DNA of 23,052 bases from the IMG/VR virus record IMGVR_UViG_3300046314_000359, positions 1 to 23,052 of that record; one strand, given 5' to 3'. The notes under the pieces are model-generated. The model did no database searches. It saw nothing but the letters and a program-made list of their open reading frames with translations, and was not told where the DNA came from. Position 1 is the first letter of the stretch. Each line of letters begins with the position of its first letter. The position numbers and the translations under genes are program-made. Below are positions 3,231 to 15,890 of this stretch, one piece after another. The DNA is from a virus.

Positions 3231-4415
3231 TTATAAAACATCCTTTTTATTCGTATATTGGCTGCTTTCCTCGTTTAAATGGGGTTCCAAGTGTCCATCG
3301 CTATCGTGGTGGTTAAATAAGATATTACGAATTAATGGACCACCGGTAAAGGCCTCGGGTATCAATAAATCTAGTTCCGTGGTTTCCTCGATTTCGGAAA
3401 AATTAAAACGAATTGACTGAACTATATATCTATTGTAGGCGTAGGCATATATATAATGGTTGTGTACATTTACTATCTCGCCAGGCGTTAAGGTTTCAAA
3501 TGGCTCGACCCCCTGTAATTTTAAATTTACTGTGATTGCGGCCAATTCTGCTGCTAGTTCGTTGTTGGCACCCTCTTTAACGTCTGTGTCCTCTCCGGAT
3601 GTCAAAATCTTGGTTGTAGGCCTGTTAACTGGTATTAAGGTATTAATAGCTTTGTCTGTCGTTGAAACTCCTTCATTATCTGCCGATGGTTGCCGTACTA
3701 CATTAATCTCTGAATGTAAACTTTGCCCGTTAAATTGGCTTTGCATACTTATTGTATTTCCTTTCGTAAAGAAAAAACGTGGCTTTTGGTTGTAGTCTAT
3801 TGTAAATAAAAGGACCTCGCCTTTATTAGTATGCGATAATAAAATGTTTTTTTGACTGGCTAATTTTGCTAAATATCCTTTTATTGTTTCCGTTGGGCTT
3901 GCTGCGGATCTTCCAAATTTAGAATTTACTTTTGCTTTTAATTTTTCAAATACTGTTTTGTCAGAAAAAAAAATTTTTTTTTCTTTTGGTAGTGGATCAT
4001 AGGCCAGCACTTCGCTGTTATCTGCAATGACTAAGCCAATGTTATAGAGCGAACATAGCCGAGTAGCTATATCTTTTAAGGACCTACCGGTACTTTCCAA
4101 AGGATAGGCTTTTATTGGTATTGTAACGTCCTCTAAAATTCCGCTTAAGGAATAGCCCGAAATACTCACCAAGTGCCTTCCAAAATCACTCGTGAAAGAA
4201 TGGTTTAAAATAGTCCCAGTGAAAAGCAAGCTGCCTTTCGAGTTGAAAATCTCCACAAGCTTGTATTGTAGGGGTTTGAAAAGCTCTTGGTGTTCCAAAT
4301 TCTGAGCATCAAATCTGGACTGAAAAGCAAATGTAGAAGCAATAGAATCTAGTTTTAATTCAATAGTTCCCGAAGTAAAGAAGTCAATTATTTTTCCTTG
4401 TATCTTAATTATCAT
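3231..4415 (-). CDS. Baseplate hub protein (Mu gp44 / gpP-like)
   Basis: A 394-aa protein with the features of gp44-type baseplate hubs: a beta-rich N-terminal domain (IKIQGKIIDFFTSG, then a FxSRFDAQN-type segment), a central LysM-like/linker part (ATRLCSLYNIGL) and a C-terminal domain ending in the conserved position for joining the spike (TTELDLLIPEAF). It would form the trimeric hub between the tail tube and the spike. I choose the ATG at 4415; the frame runs open to 4520, but that extension translates only A- and T-tracts (runs of K and F) and crosses a promoter box. An A9T9 tract inside the gene (3965-3982) encodes KEKKIFF. It follows the gp43-like gene, as in Mu, but with a terminator and promoter between them. 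Confidence 0.8.
   Translation of the reverse strand: MIIKIQGKIIDFFTSGTIELKLDSIASTFAFQSRFDAQNLEHQELFKPLQYKLVEIFNSKGSLLFTGTILNHSFTSDFGRHLVSISGYSLSGILEDVTIPIKAYPLESTGRSLKDIATRLCSLYNIGLVIADNSEVLAYDPLPKEKKIFFSDKTVFEKLKAKVNSKFGRSAASPTETIKGYLAKLASQKNILLSHTNKGEVLLFTIDYNQKPRFFFTKGNTISMQSQFNGQSLHSEINVVRQPSADNEGVSTTDKAINTLIPVNRPTTKILTSGEDTDVKEGANNELAAELAAITVNLKLQGVEPFETLTPGEIVNVHNHYIYAYAYNRYIVQSIRFNFSEIEETTELDLLIPEAFTGGPLIRNILFNHHDSDGHLEPHLNEESSQYTNKKDVL
3965..3982. repeat. A9T9 palindrome inside the hub gene
   Basis: Nine A followed by nine T, in frame in the hub coding sequence (KEKKIFF). It is the only member of this tract family that lies inside a gene. Confidence 0.6.
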
Positions 4416-4432
4416 AATAGTATATTTTTTTA

Positions 4433-4440
4433 CAAAGTTA
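4433..4440 (-). promoter_or_regulatory. Candidate -7 promoter box for the hub gene
   Basis: TAACTTTG on the minus strand matches TAnnTTTG. Upstream lies the A14T12 tract, which could act as an UP-like or bent-DNA element, and beyond it a terminator. The ATG is only 17 nt downstream, so the leader would be short. Confidence 0.4.
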
Positions 4441-4445
4441 ATACC

Positions 4446-4499
4446 AAAAAAAAAAAAAATTTTTTTTTTTTCATTATCCCCAAAAAAAAATTTTTTTTT
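4446..4499. repeat. Two A/T palindromes (A14T12 and A9T9) upstream of the hub gene
   Basis: A14T12 at 4446-4471 and A9T9 at 4482-4499, separated by ten bases (CATTATCCCC). They fill the space between the gp43-like gene's terminator and the hub promoter box. Such A-tracts are intrinsically curved, and each is a perfect or near-perfect palindrome. Confidence 0.65.
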
Positions 4500-4514
4500 A
4501 TTTCTGCACAAAAA

Positions 4515-4536
4515 AGCCATTGAATAAACAATGGCT
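4515..4536 (-). terminator. Rho-independent terminator between gp43-like and hub genes
   Basis: AGCCATTG (4515-4522) pairs with CAATGGCT (4529-4536) around a 6-nt loop, and six T follow on the minus strand. It ends the unit that carries the tape measure, baseplate and gp43-like genes. Confidence 0.8.
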
Positions 4537-4553
4537 AAAAAAAAATTTTTTTT
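4537..4553. repeat. A9T8 palindrome at the end of the gp43-like gene
   Basis: Nine A and eight T lie directly between the stop codon region of the gp43-like gene and the terminator stem. The T-run overlaps the stop codon. Confidence 0.6.
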
Positions 4554-5794: not shown

Positions 5795-5813
5795 AAAAAA
5801 AAATTTTTTTTTT
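5795..5813. repeat. A9T10 palindrome between the basic-protein and gp43-like genes
   Basis: Nine A and ten T occupy the start of the 33-bp junction and overlap the stop codon of the gene at 5812. Confidence 0.6.
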
Positions 5814-6597
5814 ATTTTGTTGATTTTAAAACTTTGTCAAATTGATATTGAGCATTTTTTTTATAAAAATCATCCATCATTTTTGATGTTTCAATAGCTG
5901 CTTCTCGATTGAAATGCGTTGCTTTAGCTCTTGCTTTTTTATGCGTTCTATCCATCATTAATAGAGTAGAATTTATTTTAAGATTGCCTTTTGCTACTCC
6001 TTTTCCCTTGTTAGCTCGTTTGTATTTTGTAATGGATTTTACTTTAATTAAAGCACGTCCTTTTGATGTGTTTACAAAAACTGCTTTTTTGGATTTTAAA
6101 GAAGCATAGGCTCTAGCCATATAAGAATCACTAGCTAATTTTTTTGTATTAATATTTGAGCTTTTATAACTTTCGGTTATATTATTTTTATCATAGTACT
6201 GCGACCTTTTTACCATTCCTCTTGCTCCACGTGTAGCAGGATAGTACTTTAATCCTGTATCATCCGTATCTCCTGATTCATTGGCTTCCATACCATACGT
6301 TACGGCTTTGTTGGCTGTTTCACCTCTTTTGTTCATAAAACCAACCGTAGCACTCATTTGATTTACATTGAATCCTTTGGCTTTCTCTACTCCTGTATTT
6401 GCCTTAAAAAAATTTGGAGCTTTTACTTTCATGTTCTTTTTTGCTGATTTCAAAATACCACCTTGTTTCATGGAAAATGCACCATCGGATAAAGTTGACC
6501 TAACAGCACTTGGAAAAGCTGATTTATTCAACCTTTCCAATTTAGCTGTTAATATTATTGCAGCATCAGTATTTACATTAAAAGTCATATTTCCCAT
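5812..6597 (-). CDS. 261-aa basic protein, possible minor tail or tail-completion protein
   Basis: A lysine-rich, helical protein. The N-terminal part (AAIILTAKLERLNKSAFPSAVRSTLSDGAFSMK) has the look of phage minor tail/HK97 gp10-type proteins that begin with a helix and a run of alternating small and charged residues. The C-terminal part repeats short K-rich helices (RTHKKARAKATHFNREA). It lies between the tail-fibre and gp43-like genes inside the baseplate block, so a virion role is likely. The family match is weak. Its ATG is directly preceded by an A9T8 palindrome. An alternative is a DNA- or fibre-associated chaperone. Confidence 0.6.
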   Translation of the reverse strand: MGNMTFNVNTDAAIILTAKLERLNKSAFPSAVRSTLSDGAFSMKQGGILKSAKKNMKVKAPNFFKANTGVEKAKGFNVNQMSATVGFMNKRGETANKAVTYGMEANESGDTDDTGLKYYPATRGARGMVKRSQYYDKNNITESYKSSNINTKKLASDSYMARAYASLKSKKAVFVNTSKGRALIKVKSITKYKRANKGKGVAKGNLKINSTLLMMDRTHKKARAKATHFNREAAIETSKMMDDFYKKNAQYQFDKVLKSTK

Positions 6598-6614
6598 AAA
6601 AAAAAATTTTTTTT
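6598..6614. repeat. A9T8 palindrome between the tail-fibre and basic-protein genes
   Basis: Nine A and eight T fill the whole gap between the stop codon of the gene at 6613 and the ATG at 6597. Confidence 0.6.
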
Positions 6615-7770
6615 ATAATAACCAGCTTTTAGCAATTTCGCCTGAGCCAAAATAAATTTTATTATTAAACCCAAAAATATTTCCTGAAATACCACCATAA
6701 TCCCCAAGAATTATTTTAACACCCGTATTCAAATTAAATGAAGATAAAATTCCTGAATTTAAGGTATAAAGCAAATCTGTTTTTACAACTGCATTAGACG
6801 TTTTTATAAAAGAAACATCTAAACTAACTGTAGAGACATTTGTCAATGTCCCCGCTACTGGATTATAATTTAATTTATTGATGTTATAATCATAAGTAGT
6901 AGAATTCATGTCATTAGTAACATAAACAACGCCACTTTTAAAATACACATAAGGACTTAAATTACTGGCTGTAGCAAATGAAGCTCCCGATATAGTTACT
7001 GCTGTAGAAGCACTTAAATCAGTCAAAGCAAATTGTCTGAAAAAATAGGTGTTTGTAGCCGCTATAAAACAAAAACAAAGCACATAACCATTTGAAATAA
7101 TAATATCATTTACAATCACCGTTCCATTACTAACATCTACTCTAATGATATTCTCTAAGTAATTTACGGTAGGCACATCACTTATTAATCTTCCATCTGT
7201 TTGGTAGTACATTTTATCGCTATCATTGAATGCTAATGGAGAACCCATAACCGTACTTACTTCATCTGAAACAGAATCTAAAAAGGACAAAGAAAAGGCT
7301 CTGACGCCTGATGTGTCTAGTATTAACAAAACCTCATCCGAAGGATTAAAACCACTTGAAGTAAAATTATAAGTAGTAGCACCCGTTCCTTTAAAAGTAT
7401 AAATTCCACCCGAAGCATAAGCATCAGCTGCTTTTGCAATAAAAAAATATTTATTTGGTAATAACTCAATCGCTTTTGGAATACTCCAAACCGTTCCCGT
7501 CAAGGTTAATATCTGCTCGGAATCATTTAAGGAATTAGGTAGTTTTTTTAAAGCTTCAATAATTTGGTACCCATTTGCTTCGCTATCTTCTAAACCTGTA
7601 GCCGTAATTCCAGCCAATTCTAAAAGTTTATAAAAATTAACTAATGGGTCGTTGTATATCTCTCTTACCACGGGAGTTCCTGATGCTGTATCTGTTTCGT
7701 TCAATATGGCTCCAGAAGGAAAATTTGAATTTACTTCTTTAACTATCGGTAGTTGACTAATTTTTCTCAT
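6613..7770 (-). CDS. Tail-fibre-like protein 2
   Basis: 385 aa. The first about 75 residues share a module with the neighbouring 346-aa protein: a polar lead, then a helix ending in GITATGLEDSEANGYQIIEA (NGYQIIEA at 66-73). The next about 100 residues also look related (a segment like IPKAIELLPNKYFFIAK). After that the protein becomes a beta-rich, Ser/Thr/Asn-rich region with repeated NINKLNYNPVAGTLTNVSTV-type strands, typical of receptor-binding or propeller-like domains. The shared N-terminus probably attaches to the same baseplate site, while the divergent C-terminus may bind a host glycan or surface protein. No chaperone gene follows directly. Confidence 0.7.
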   Translation of the reverse strand: MRKISQLPIVKEVNSNFPSGAILNETDTASGTPVVREIYNDPLVNFYKLLELAGITATGLEDSEANGYQIIEALKKLPNSLNDSEQILTLTGTVWSIPKAIELLPNKYFFIAKAADAYASGGIYTFKGTGATTYNFTSSGFNPSDEVLLILDTSGVRAFSLSFLDSVSDEVSTVMGSPLAFNDSDKMYYQTDGRLISDVPTVNYLENIIRVDVSNGTVIVNDIIISNGYVLCFCFIAATNTYFFRQFALTDLSASTAVTISGASFATASNLSPYVYFKSGVVYVTNDMNSTTYDYNINKLNYNPVAGTLTNVSTVSLDVSFIKTSNAVVKTDLLYTLNSGILSSFNLNTGVKIILGDYGGISGNIFGFNNKIYFGSGEIAKSWLL

Positions 7771-11292: not shown

Positions 11293-13281
11293 TTAGTTAT
11301 TTCCTCGTTGCCCTTGGGTTGATCCTAAATTTACTTTTACTCCTGTTGCTTTAGAATTATCCACACTACCAACTACTCCTGGAGGTGCGTTTAGATTTAA
11401 TTCTAACACACCACCTTTTTCTATTATTTTAAGCATATCTTGTAAACTAGATTCCACACTTGACATATTACTTCCTGCTAAATTAGGTGATTGATTTGTA
11501 TTCCATTGTGGCATTAAACCCCCAAATGTGCTAAATTGATTTGAACCTGTAGCATTTCCTATTGATGTTTCTGATGGTACTTTATCTCTAACACTTTCTA
11601 AATCAACAGCCATTTCTTTAAATGAAGAACCAACACCTGGGATGAAAGACGTTAATCTCCCCATTATATTAAAAATACCGATTAAAGGTGATAATATTAA
11701 ATCTTCAAGCATTACTCCAATAGCTTTAATTCCACTTCCCCATCCTTCAAAAGCAAATTTATTACTAATGTTATCAGAATGTTTTGATATTTTTTCTAAT
11801 AATAAAACAACCCATCCTAAAGGACCTATCAAAAGCATAATAATATCATTCCAATCTTCCCAATGCTGAACCATATCTATTACTACCCAAATAAGAAGTC
11901 CTAATGCTAACATAGGCCACACAGTAGCCCAAAGACCAATAGCTGCTTCATAAGCAACAACAGTAACGCCTCTTAACCCAAAAGACATAACCATTGTAGA
12001 AAAAGTATACGCTTTAGTAGCAATATTTACAATAGCCAATGCCCTAGAATATCCTAAAAGATAAAAAGCACCTGCTTTTAAAACGACACCCATCGCAAGC
12101 AATCCTATTGTTAAATAAAAAACAGCTTTAATTAAACGTTTATTTTCTTTTGCCCATATAGTAAGGTTTTTGATAATAGGAATTAATTTAACTACCAATT
12201 TTGAGATTAAAGGCAATAAAGCTTGGCCTATTACAATGGCTAAAAATATCATCGTGTTTTTTAAATCCTTTAGTTTTTTTGAAAACGTTGCGTTATTTTT
12301 ATCGGCTTTTGCTTGTGCAGTATTATTCTTTTCAATAAAACTTAAGTAATCTTCAAACATTTTAAAACTACTCAAGAATGTAGCCCCTGTTTCAAATCCT
12401 GTTTTTTTGAAAAACATTCCCATTGCCTGCTTGTTTGAAAGCAATTTTTTTACTTCTCTTAATTTATCTATAAATTTTGTAGTAGGGTTAATAATTTTAT
12501 TTATATCAGCTCCAACCATTACTAATGCTTTTTGCTTATTTTTATCCATTCCTTTACCCGTATTCAAATCAACCATTAAATTTCTAAAACCTCTACCTAC
12601 GCCATCTTTACCCAATGTTTTTGTCGTTGTTTGAACCAAAGCTATAGTCTCTTCTAAACTAGCTCCAGCCATTCTTGAGGAAGCTGCAAATTGTCTAACT
12701 ACATCCGCAGATTCAGAGATGGTACTAGCCCCAATATCTTCCCCAGAAGACAATTTATTTATAACTCTATTCGCATCTTTATAACTTAACTTAAATTGAT
12801 TTAAAATTGAAGTTAAATTATCCGTCGAATCTTCAATACTCATTTTTGAAGCATCAGCCAGTAATATTGATTGTTTGGCAATTTCTCTTAGAGCAGTTGG
12901 ATTTTTTAAATATTCAGACATTTTTGATCCAATTGTTTCAAAGCCTTTGGCAATATCAATTACAGACCTACTTGTTTCTAAACCTAAACTTTCAATATCT
13001 TTATTCATTGACCCAACTGATGTTCCTGTAACAGCGGCCAAACTAGCTATTGCAGTTTCATATTTAGATGCTTGGTCAATTACTAAACCTATCCCTACCG
13101 CCATTCCTGCTCCAGCAGTAAGCATAGAAGACCCATAATCATTCATTTTTCTACTAGCACGCATAGAAGCTGCTTGTGCCGTTTCTCCAAAAGCAGAAAC
13201 ACTTCTTGACATCCTACTTACAACCCCACTAAACCTATCCACCGCAGTAAATATAGTTGGAACCCTCATTGTTGTAGCCAT
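11293..13281 (-). CDS. Tail tape measure protein
   Basis: 662 aa. It has a TP901-type tape measure core (about residues 70-330, including SKYETAIASLAAVTGTS and FAASSRMAGASLEETIALVQ), then four hydrophobic segments at about 344-372, 384-412, 452-471 and 479-496, and a low-complexity C-terminus. Tape measures set tail length and are ejected through the tube; at about 0.15 nm per residue this would give roughly 100 nm. The gene follows the tail chaperone, as expected, but a terminator lies between the two. The hydrophobic segments may help cross the host inner membrane. Confidence 0.92.
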   Translation of the reverse strand: MATTMRVPTIFTAVDRFSGVVSRMSRSVSAFGETAQAASMRASRKMNDYGSSMLTAGAGMAVGIGLVIDQASKYETAIASLAAVTGTSVGSMNKDIESLGLETSRSVIDIAKGFETIGSKMSEYLKNPTALREIAKQSILLADASKMSIEDSTDNLTSILNQFKLSYKDANRVINKLSSGEDIGASTISESADVVRQFAASSRMAGASLEETIALVQTTTKTLGKDGVGRGFRNLMVDLNTGKGMDKNKQKALVMVGADINKIINPTTKFIDKLREVKKLLSNKQAMGMFFKKTGFETGATFLSSFKMFEDYLSFIEKNNTAQAKADKNNATFSKKLKDLKNTMIFLAIVIGQALLPLISKLVVKLIPIIKNLTIWAKENKRLIKAVFYLTIGLLAMGVVLKAGAFYLLGYSRALAIVNIATKAYTFSTMVMSFGLRGVTVVAYEAAIGLWATVWPMLALGLLIWVVIDMVQHWEDWNDIIMLLIGPLGWVVLLLEKISKHSDNISNKFAFEGWGSGIKAIGVMLEDLILSPLIGIFNIMGRLTSFIPGVGSSFKEMAVDLESVRDKVPSETSIGNATGSNQFSTFGGLMPQWNTNQSPNLAGSNMSSVESSLQDMLKIIEKGGVLELNLNAPPGVVGSVDNSKATGVKVNLGSTQGQRGNN

Positions 13282-13301: not shown

Positions 13302-13333
13302 AAACCTCTAGCAGTTTAAGCTACTAGAGGTTT
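13302..13333 (-). terminator. Terminator-like hairpin between chaperone and tape measure
   Basis: AAACCTCTAG (13302-13311) pairs with CTAGAGGTTT (13324-13333). With one G-U wobble the stem extends to 13 bp around a 6-nt loop. Six T follow on the minus strand. It lies 4 nt after the frameshift extension's stop codon and 21 nt before the tape measure ATG. No promoter box is visible between, so it probably works as an attenuator, not a full stop. Confidence 0.8.
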
Positions 13334-13336
13334 AGT

Positions 13337-13507
13337 TTATTTTTTCTTCATTTCTTTGTTGATGCGTATTAATTCAGAATACCAATAAAAAAGACCTAAA
13401 TAATCGTAATCATCACAATACATTTCGCTTATTACTTGTGGTGTCCAATGATGATAATCTACAAGGCTTTTAATTACATTGTCCAAACTATCTACATCAT
13501 AATTACG
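13337..13507 (-). CDS. Tail-assembly chaperone, C-terminal extension (reached by frameshift)
   Basis: This 56-codon frame directly continues the 138-aa chaperone in another phase (a shift of -2 or +1) from CGT at 13507 to TAA at 13339-13337. It has no start codon near its beginning; the first ATG lies about 28 codons in, and an in-frame TAA precedes the overlap. The product is acidic then aromatic (DYHHWTPQVISEMYCDDYDY), ending KKK, which looks like the T part of G/GT-type chaperones. In lambda the GT fusion recruits the tape measure and tail tube. Its position between tube and tape measure is exactly right. Confidence 0.75.
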   Translation of the reverse strand, partial: RNYDVDSLDNVIKSLVDYHHWTPQVISEMYCDDYDYLGLFYWYSELIRINKEMKKK

Positions 13508-13919
13508 AAAAAACTGCTGATACTGAACTTACAACATCATAATCATAACGTGATAAACTATCCAAAATCGCCACAGGTTGACCGATAATGTTTGCAACCA
13601 TTCTCAATTGAAGATTCAACGGATCTTTAGCTACATCCAATCCTTTTGCTAAATTAGCCAATGTTGTAGGCTTAATTCGTGTTGCAAAAGTAATTTCTGA
13701 AATAAAAATCCCTCCATCATCATTCTTAATAGGTGATTTAAGTTTTAAAGTTGGTACTTGACCATCATCAAAAGTCAAAAATCCATCGACAATTGCATCT
13801 AAAATATCAGGATATGTATTTTCTAACATATCTTTTGAAACTGGTTTTTTAATCCAATTATTTACAAATACTTCTAAATCATTCAATGCAACTTCCTTGT
13901 TCACAATTACTGTTTTCAT
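13503..13919 (-). CDS. Tail-assembly chaperone, main product (G-type)
   Basis: 138 aa, acidic and helical, starting MKTVIVNKEVALNDLEVFV and containing TRIKPTTLANLAKGLDVAKDPL, a pattern usual in tail-assembly chaperones. It follows the tail tube gene, as in lambda and Mu. It binds or coats the tape measure during tail assembly and is not normally in the virion. It ends with A-V-F-S-stop on a run of six T, where ribosomes could shift into the frame at 13507-13337 to make a longer product of about 193-194 aa. Confidence 0.75.
   Translation of the reverse strand: MKTVIVNKEVALNDLEVFVNNWIKKPVSKDMLENTYPDILDAIVDGFLTFDDGQVPTLKLKSPIKNDDGGIFISEITFATRIKPTTLANLAKGLDVAKDPLNLQLRMVANIIGQPVAILDSLSRYDYDVVSSVSAVFS
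13507..13514 (-). promoter_or_regulatory. Probable slippery site for programmed frameshift
   Basis: Minus strand reads GTTTTTTC: six T spanning the codons GTT TTT TCG, two codons before the stop TAA. A Phe-tRNA can slip on the T-run. A shift of -2 (or +1) joins the two frames; a -1 shift meets a TAG five codons later. The distance and T-run fit recoding. Confidence 0.6.
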
Positions 13920-13944: not shown

Positions 13945-14355
13945 TTATGAAATTTTTGCTAAAATTCCACCGCCAACAACTTTTAAAGTCATTGTACCCG
14001 CATTTGAATCTCCTTGTAAGTCTCCAACAGGCATTCCATTTCCTGTGTAAATTCCTCCTGAAAGGAAAGAAAATGTCCATGTACCTGTAATCGGACTTTC
14101 TGTAATTTGATTCAGCGTAGTCATTTGATCGTCTGAAATTTGGTCAAATGCAATAGGACCTTCTACCGACCATCTTGTGCGATTCTTTTGAATCATCAAT
14201 TGACCATTAGATGTTATTTGATTTGCATCATCATTATTTCTAATACCACCTTTATCGATTGTGAAACTTTCATTAGCTTTAGGAAAGTAGCTAAAACGCC
14301 CTAATACATGCTGACAAGTAATCTCAACACAATCCCCAAAAACAAAATTTGCCAT
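13945..14355 (-). CDS. Tail tube protein
   Basis: 136 aa, beta-rich. The gene follows the sheath gene and precedes the chaperone, the standard place for the tube protein in contractile-tail phages (Mu gpM-like). Segments such as TSNGQLMIQKNRTRWSVEGPI and GTWTFSFLSGGIYTGNGMPVGDLQGDSNAGTMTLKV look like the repeated strands of a Hcp-like tube fold. Rings of this protein form the inner tube through which DNA passes. The family match itself is by position and fold look, not a clear motif. Confidence 0.75.
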   Translation of the reverse strand: MANFVFGDCVEITCQHVLGRFSYFPKANESFTIDKGGIRNNDDANQITSNGQLMIQKNRTRWSVEGPIAFDQISDDQMTTLNQITESPITGTWTFSFLSGGIYTGNGMPVGDLQGDSNAGTMTLKVVGGGILAKIS

Positions 14356-14372: not shown

Positions 14373-15890
14373 TTAAAATCCTGCGCTTGCAGTTGTACTT
14401 TCGATTCTTGCAATTCCGGTACGCTTGTACTTGAATGCGGTTTCAAATCGGTTTGGGTTTGAAGTTGAAATAGAAACTACCAAACTTGATTTTGAGAACT
14501 CAGGGTCGTTTATCAATGCTTTTTTAGCAGCATTATCAAACATATCAAAAAGAATAGCTTTCCATTCTCTTGGTTTAATACATCCATCCACTTCTACAAC
14601 TTGATTGTCCGCAATCAATGTCTTATCCTTCAAGAAAGTAGCTTCCAAAGTTCTTAAAGAATCAGACATATTGAAGTCGATATTTAAGTTTCTTGGATAA
14701 GCATATTGTAGTGGCAATTCTCCATCAGGATGATAAGTAGTAACCAAGTCTTGAACTTGATATGCTCCATTAACTAACATTACTGTAGAACAACCTTTCT
14801 TAACTAAATAATCACGGTTATTGTAGTCTCTCATATCCCCAATGTTTCCATCAGAAGGGATTGGCATATCTGGATAAGATAAAGCATTCACATCTAAGTT
14901 TGGATTGTTTTGAAAAATAACAGCTCCTAAACTAACCACGTTGGCCGCAGCTTCAAATGTAAATCCTTTTGAATTTGGAGCCACACAAATAGCGTTTGTA
15001 ACTTGATTAATTCTAGCAGAATCATTTGTAATTGCAGCTAAAACTGTTTTATCTCCTGATACATTTCCGATATAAGATACGAATGGTTTGAAAATCAATC
15101 CTGAATATCTTCCCGTTGGATTAATCTCAGAAGGAATCCCATTAAAGGCTTCTAATTCATCCAATTGATCTGCATAAGGATTTATTACAGAAGTATACCA
15201 ATCGTCTCCAAATTGATCTAAAGAAGCGGCTAAACTTACAACTCCTGCTCCATTTGTAGAAGCAGTTTGTGAATAGCTTACGCCTGCAGCATTTAAACCA
15301 AAATCAATTGCAATATTTAATTCTGCACTAGTGATTCCTTTCCATTTTGAAGTAATAGTAACTACCCCAACAGCAGAACTTGCTGTACAAGGTGCACCCA
15401 AAACGCCATTGATTGCATCTCTTAATTTTCCTGCAATTATAGTAGGTGTATCTCCCACAGCTACAGAATAAGAATAGGTTTGAAAATCTAATGAAGTTCT
15501 ACCATTTACAACCACCGTATGAGTAGCATTTGCTGTAGCAGTTCCTGTAACTGTCCAAGCTCTTGTTGTAGCAGTAGCCCCTACATCTGTAATTTGAGGA
15601 AAAATAATAGTTGGTATTCCGCCAACACCATCACCTGATTTAGGACGTAAAATCCTCATTATTGAGTGAATTGGAGAACCATATCCAAATAATGTAGCGG
15701 CTTCTGACGCGCTTGTAACTTCTACCTTTGTAGTAGTCAAACCTGCTTGATTCGCAGTATTTGCTTCACCAAAAACTGCAATAATTTGTGGCAAATTCTG
15801 GGTATCGTTATTGGAAAAATACTTCTTGATATTATATCCACTAACTCTTGAAATTCTATCAAGACCAACAGCCGTTGAAATTGTAGCCAT
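14373..15890 (-). CDS. Tail sheath protein
   Basis: 505 aa, close to Mu gpL (about 495 aa). The N-terminal part contains LPQIIAVFGEANTANQAGL and SEAATLFGYGSPIHSIMRIL; a middle beta-rich insert (about residues 115-205: VVVNGRTSLDFQTYSYSVAVGDTP) follows, then DDWYTSVINPYADQLDELEAF, and a C-terminal domain with NRDYLVKKGCSTVMLVNGAYQVQDLVTTY and FLKDKTLIADNQVVEVDG, which is the conserved sheath core. It makes the phage a contractile-tail type. The protein forms a helical sheath around the tube and contracts on infection. Confidence 0.93.
   Translation of the reverse strand: MATISTAVGLDRISRVSGYNIKKYFSNNDTQNLPQIIAVFGEANTANQAGLTTTKVEVTSASEAATLFGYGSPIHSIMRILRPKSGDGVGGIPTIIFPQITDVGATATTRAWTVTGTATANATHTVVVNGRTSLDFQTYSYSVAVGDTPTIIAGKLRDAINGVLGAPCTASSAVGVVTITSKWKGITSAELNIAIDFGLNAAGVSYSQTASTNGAGVVSLAASLDQFGDDWYTSVINPYADQLDELEAFNGIPSEINPTGRYSGLIFKPFVSYIGNVSGDKTVLAAITNDSARINQVTNAICVAPNSKGFTFEAAANVVSLGAVIFQNNPNLDVNALSYPDMPIPSDGNIGDMRDYNNRDYLVKKGCSTVMLVNGAYQVQDLVTTYHPDGELPLQYAYPRNLNIDFNMSDSLRTLEATFLKDKTLIADNQVVEVDGCIKPREWKAILFDMFDNAAKKALINDPEFSKSSLVVSISTSNPNRFETAFKYKRTGIARIESTTASAGF

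Follow-up and report, generated by a model that had tools for sequence, protein, structure and literature searches.

Probable -2 or +1 frameshifting joins the two halves of a phage tail assembly chaperone in a family that mostly uses the -1 frame

How does a phage express an open frame that overlaps the end of a tail gene and has no conserved start codon of its own? The question is raised by a locus on the minus strand of a metagenome virus contig (IMG/VR IMGVR_UViG_3300046314_000359), of which a stretch of 23,052 nt was analysed and is referred to here as the window. The host of the virus is a Flavobacterium-type bacterium. Reading along the minus strand, the genes are ordered tail sheath, tail tube, a 138-aa protein, tape measure protein and then the baseplate genes, which include a Mu gp48-like protein. 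The two overlapping frames sit between the tail tube and tape measure genes, as in lambda G/GT-type chaperones. The features of the region are as follows.

14373-15890, minus strand: tail sheath, upstream of the tail tube
13945-14355, minus strand: tail tube protein, 136 aa (phrog_4699, E 4e-45)
13503-13919, minus strand: short form of the very probable tail assembly chaperone, 138 aa (phrog_4648), between the tube and the tape measure (phrog_28)
13507-13514, minus strand: putative shift site G TTT TTT C, zero-frame codons GTT TTT TCG TAA
13337-13528, minus strand: extension frame, stop to stop, +1/-2 relative to the chaperone, with a phrog_5697-like helical domain
13437-13507, minus strand: region of the relatives' 3' hairpin, where the window has just a weak stem-loop, -10.4 kcal/mol
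13302-13333, minus strand: terminator-like hairpin ending in a T tail, in the gap that separates extension and tape-measure gene
11293-13281, minus strand: tail tape measure protein, 662 aa (PF10145, E 2e-18; phrog_28, E 3e-45)

The chaperone frame runs from 13919 to its TAA stop at 13505-13503, immediately after a run of six Ts (13513-13508) that is flanked by G13514 and C13507. The +1/-2 frame is open from 13528, directly behind an in-frame TAA at 13531-13529, and closes with the TAA at 13339-13337. It comprises 63 codons, 56 when counted from the CGT at 13507, and 3' of the T run it encodes FRNYDVDSLDNVIKSLVDYHHWTPQVISEMYCDDYDYLGLFYWYSELIRINKEMKKK. An earlier note on this DNA had described the same layout, with the chaperone frame ending just after T6 and a TAA preceding the overlap with a 56-codon extension, and the coordinates agree. 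The stop that it placed about five codons into a -1 shift in the window is a TAG, and the long product, which it expected at about 193-194 aa, is predicted to have 194 residues after a -2 shift and 193 after +1. Its view that the extension lacks a start needs qualifying: no start is conserved, but an in-frame TTG at codon 8 (13486-13484) had been missed.

Both parts have relatives of their own. They match two families listed as of unknown function, phrog_4648 for the 138-aa protein (E 2e-32) and phrog_5697 for the extension (E 8.8e-17). By tblastn, 86 phage records proved to carry each part, 79 from Flavobacterium and 7 from Cellulophaga phages, and the extension is 60% identical to its counterpart in the isolated phage FL-1. 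The phrog match, these 86 records and about 100 loci show that the extension frame is not there by chance.

An AlphaFold2 model of the 138-aa protein has a pLDDT of 91.8. In BFVD, Foldseek matched it to viral proteins named as tail assembly or tape measure chaperones with probabilities of 0.97-1.0 and weak E values of 0.06-0.2; the top three hits, at E about 1e-5, are unnamed. In the PDB there was a weak structural match to YqbN, with no close solved structure and no relative found by sequence search. The window protein matched no chaperone family in Pfam, nor the Mu gp41 family, and PF08748 (Phage_TAC_4) was found in 2/13 relatives with a best E value of 6e-5. The extension is modelled as three helices (pLDDT 86). 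Based mainly on position, the two-frame layout and the predicted fold, the 138-aa protein is very probably a tail assembly chaperone. The earlier note's identification, a tail-assembly chaperone with a T6 shift site, is supported.

Scans of viral contigs and one genome collection gave 100 distinct pairs, and with one incomplete pair left out 99 loci were compared. The window locus occurs in identical form in two further IMG/VR contigs. A search of 395 bacterial genomes of one class yielded no copy beyond the Pedobacter genome already known, so prophages add little. The extension is conserved as a protein in all 99 loci, in whichever frame it falls, and this frame is -1 in 91 and +1/-2 in only eight: the window, FL-1 and the loci L008, L009, L016, L021, L025 and L094. 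FCL-2 and phiSM belong to the -1 group. The proposal that the extension can be reached only by -2 or +1 holds in the window, but the use of the -1 frame at the same site by 91/99 relatives had not been seen, nor had a hairpin 3' of the run.

The two groups differ by one base. In -1 relatives the sequence is, for example, TTTTTTCATAAGGTGG (F I R W), against TTTTTTCATAGATGG (F H R W) in the +1/-2 group; the T6 run itself is unchanged and the difference lies 3' of it. A -2 shift would give a fusion of the same length as in the -1 relatives, and +1 a fusion one residue shorter. As the one-base difference falls after the T run, it is not an error in homopolymer length. A sequencing or assembly error that hides a true -1 frame in the window might be considered for a metagenome contig, but eight distinct sequences share the frame, including that of the isolated phage FL-1, and we regard this as the least probable of the explanations.

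Relatives lacking the T run or the downstream frame, which the earlier note held would speak against its proposal, were looked for. A run of at least five Ts stands at the end of the chaperone gene in 99/99 loci, always with the extension. The codon phase is NTT TTT at 58/62 of the sites with T5 or T6; in a distant clade the runs are T7-T8, many with the classical T_TTT_TTY heptamer. All eight +1/-2 loci have the site (G/A)TT TTT TC(G/A) TA(A/G). From the start of the overlap to codon 14, 46/99 loci have no ATG, GTG or TTG.

To look for structure, the roughly 70 nt that follow the run were folded and scored against synonymous recodings that leave the peptide unchanged. Single-sequence folds were used with this synonymous-codon null since RNAalifold gave no consensus structure across the -1 loci, probably owing to differing stem registers. 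The 54 -1 loci with T5 or T6 gave a mean z of -2.73, with p <=0.05 in 65%. Mean z was -0.72 for T7/T8 loci and -1.08 for the eight +1/-2 loci, and four control regions in the same loci gave -0.05 to -0.45. Often the stem begins 6-7 nt past the TTT codon; it pairs the codons of RW with those of W-x-P. Pairing is kept while the arms vary between relatives (GGTGG/CCACC, TTGGGG/CCCCAA, TTGGTG/CACCAA). Within the +1/-2 group, L016, L021 and L025 keep a significant 3' hairpin. The window's clade (L006, L008, L009) has no significant 3' structure, and the window's own is no better than chance (z -0.31 and -0.06); L008 and L009 are the closest to it of the relatives. An Rfam search returned nothing relevant.

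Across the family, structure tends to be weak where the run is strong and canonical, and strong where the run is short. The long canonical T7/T8 loci (for example L032, L038 and L164) mostly have no significant 3' hairpin and the T5/T6 loci have one, as if site strength and structure traded off. A terminator-like hairpin such as that at 13302-13333 is found in 7/8 of the +1/-2 loci, 14/53 of the T5/T6 -1 loci and 0/36 of the T7/T8 loci, similar in form and different in sequence; in the window it may lower tape-measure expression. Elsewhere on the minus strand of the window, adjacent A8-A12 and T9-T14 runs form blocks (4459-4553, 3973-3990, 5803-5870 and 6606-6622), most of them at gene borders in the baseplate region. 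One such border is probably the 5' portion of the ORF at 3231-4520 (KKKFFF...KKKIFFFFG), which would then be non-coding.

The T run, the conserved extension and the excess of structure in relatives beyond what the protein sequence needs make programmed frameshifting very likely. From these sequence comparisons we put the probability that a programmed -2 or +1 frameshift joins the chaperone to the extension at about 0.87. Two other routes to the extension would do without a ribosomal shift. It could be a separate small protein, initiated internally, for example at the TTG at 13486, or made by ribosomes that reinitiate behind the chaperone stop. An in-frame TTG does exist, and in phiSM (gp24) and VK58 (ASD53319.1) the extension is annotated as a hypothetical gene with its own assigned start; in the FL-1 and FCL-2 records it carries no annotation. 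But the starts assigned in phiSM and VK58 are not conserved, the window's TTG is, among the loci examined for it, present in L008 and absent from L009 and FL-1, nearly half of the loci lack any candidate start up to codon 14, and a fixed T run and hairpin would be needless for such a protein, which leaves this route very unlikely. Alternatively, RNA polymerase could add or drop a U within T6, so that part of the mRNA would carry the fusion in one frame. The run is indeed present in every locus, but many sites in the family have only T5, a polymerase would not require the NTT TTT phase, and a hairpin that follows after some 6 nt is in keeping with slipping by the ribosome. The fixed phase points to the ribosome, not the polymerase, as what slips, and we consider polymerase slippage more improbable still. 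Given the phase of the T run, the absence of a conserved start and the eight loci that share a frame, separate initiation, transcriptional slippage and assembly error were all rejected.

This leaves the direction of the proposed frameshift. The earlier note leaned to -2 by reference to Mu; the net frame fits, but +1 is also plausible. A -2 shift requires a T as third base of the V/I codon before TTT, and it is T in 8/8, where only 10/128 such third-base columns are invariant among the eight +1/-2 loci. A +1 shift requires T (or C) after TTT. This too is T in 8/8, and of 33 columns with a first base that varies in -1 relatives only 3 are invariant in the +1/-2 loci. The two signals weigh about the same, each of them weakened by the common descent of the loci, and a slip in two steps of -1 would depend on both bases.

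In the +1 route the tRNA-Phe would move from UUU to the overlapping UUU, free of any hairpin, while the rare UCG waits in the A site. The codon is rare here (4.6 per 1000), although the choice of TCG over TCA is also constrained by the overlapping extension codon. According to a review, UUU_Ynn is especially prone to +1 in bacteria, and a fungal gene that shifts -1 in most species, with U_UUU_UCC in one, shifts +1 in some (PMC5009743). The absence of a significant hairpin in the window's clade leaves +1 open. Against +1, the conserved third-position T is unneeded, other members of the family would slip backward at the same site, and in the part of the tree with L016, L021 and L025 their hairpin speaks for a backward slip. 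The same review reports a -2 shift in the tail chaperone genes of Mu (PMC5009743), and the arterivirus site G_GUU_UUU, where both -2 and -1 are described (PMC6675879), is a precedent for the two on one site. On balance we give -2 an even chance, and find +1 a possible, if somewhat less favoured, direction.

Under the -2 or +1 frameshift, one gene would yield two tail assembly chaperones, as in lambda G/GT. The majority of ribosomes would end at 13503 and give the 138-aa form. In a minority, tRNA-Phe would slip on U6 (GUU UUU UCG UAA) into the +1/-2 frame, adding a helical domain of 56-57 aa. By analogy, the short part may coat the tape measure protein and the extension may recruit tail tube subunits. 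The usual slip in this family at the U5-U6 site would be -1, aided by the hairpin about 6-7 nt downstream. The stretch from the run to the extension is one base shorter in the window's group, so the productive slip would now be two back or one forward.

The arrangement has parallels in several known systems. In lambda G/GT the genes lie between tube and tape measure, as here; a short and an extended chaperone are made and the shift falls near the end of the first frame, as is predicted for the window. In chaperones of this type the fusion is the minor product and does not enter the virion. The lambda shift site is GGGAAAG, whereas the putative site of the window is a U run and the shift would be into the +1/-2 frame. 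A further difference is that the window protein has no Pfam match to a chaperone family. The programmed -1 frameshift of lambda has been described (Levin 1993; Xu, Hendrix and Duda 2004 and later; cited through PMC5009743). The tail chaperone genes of Mu (PMC5009743, PMC2628397) share the net frame, and both phages have a contractile tail, the window's with a Mu gp48-like baseplate protein. However, -2 is reported for Mu, whereas here the bases for -2 and +1 are both conserved and in close relatives the same site serves for -1. The arterivirus nsp2 site likewise has GUU UUU in frame, with -1 and -2 both possible on one U run, but it works with eukaryotic ribosomes, a protein transactivator and a C-rich motif (PMC6675879), unlike a bacterial group with a hairpin in which different relatives use different frames. 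The Flavobacterium and Cellulophaga phages FL-1, FCL-2 and phiSM carry direct homologues of both parts in the same order, yet in their records these are listed as of unknown function and are not joined.

How often did the frame change? The best tree of both parts, from which the junction columns were left out, calls for three changes to the +1/-2 state, and 0/200 bootstrap trees had one change. An AU test did not reject a single +1/-2 clade (p 0.096), and together with the three-change best tree this gives one to three switches. By far the commoner state, -1 is probably ancestral, though the tree method infers no root. It is a coin-toss, in our estimate, that one U5-U6 cassette in a single gene family changed its productive direction one to three times, leaving a hairpin-stimulated -1 shift for -2, or in the window's clade for +1 without a hairpin, through a one-base change in length just past the site. 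If so, the ancestral cassette must have leaked into the other frame enough for tail formation.

Frameshifted tail chaperones are well known, and phage -2 shifting rests on few cases. We found no paper on recoding in the tails of Flavobacterium phages. The contribution of this analysis is the frame switch inside an otherwise -1 family. A natural switch between -1 and -2/+1 is rare, as are sets of closely related genes that use both at the same run. The comparison also names a function for phrog_4648 and phrog_5697, which are very probably the two halves of one frameshifted tail chaperone, and the set of 99 sequences, with hairpins of varying strength, makes the determinants of slip direction in Bacteroidota testable.
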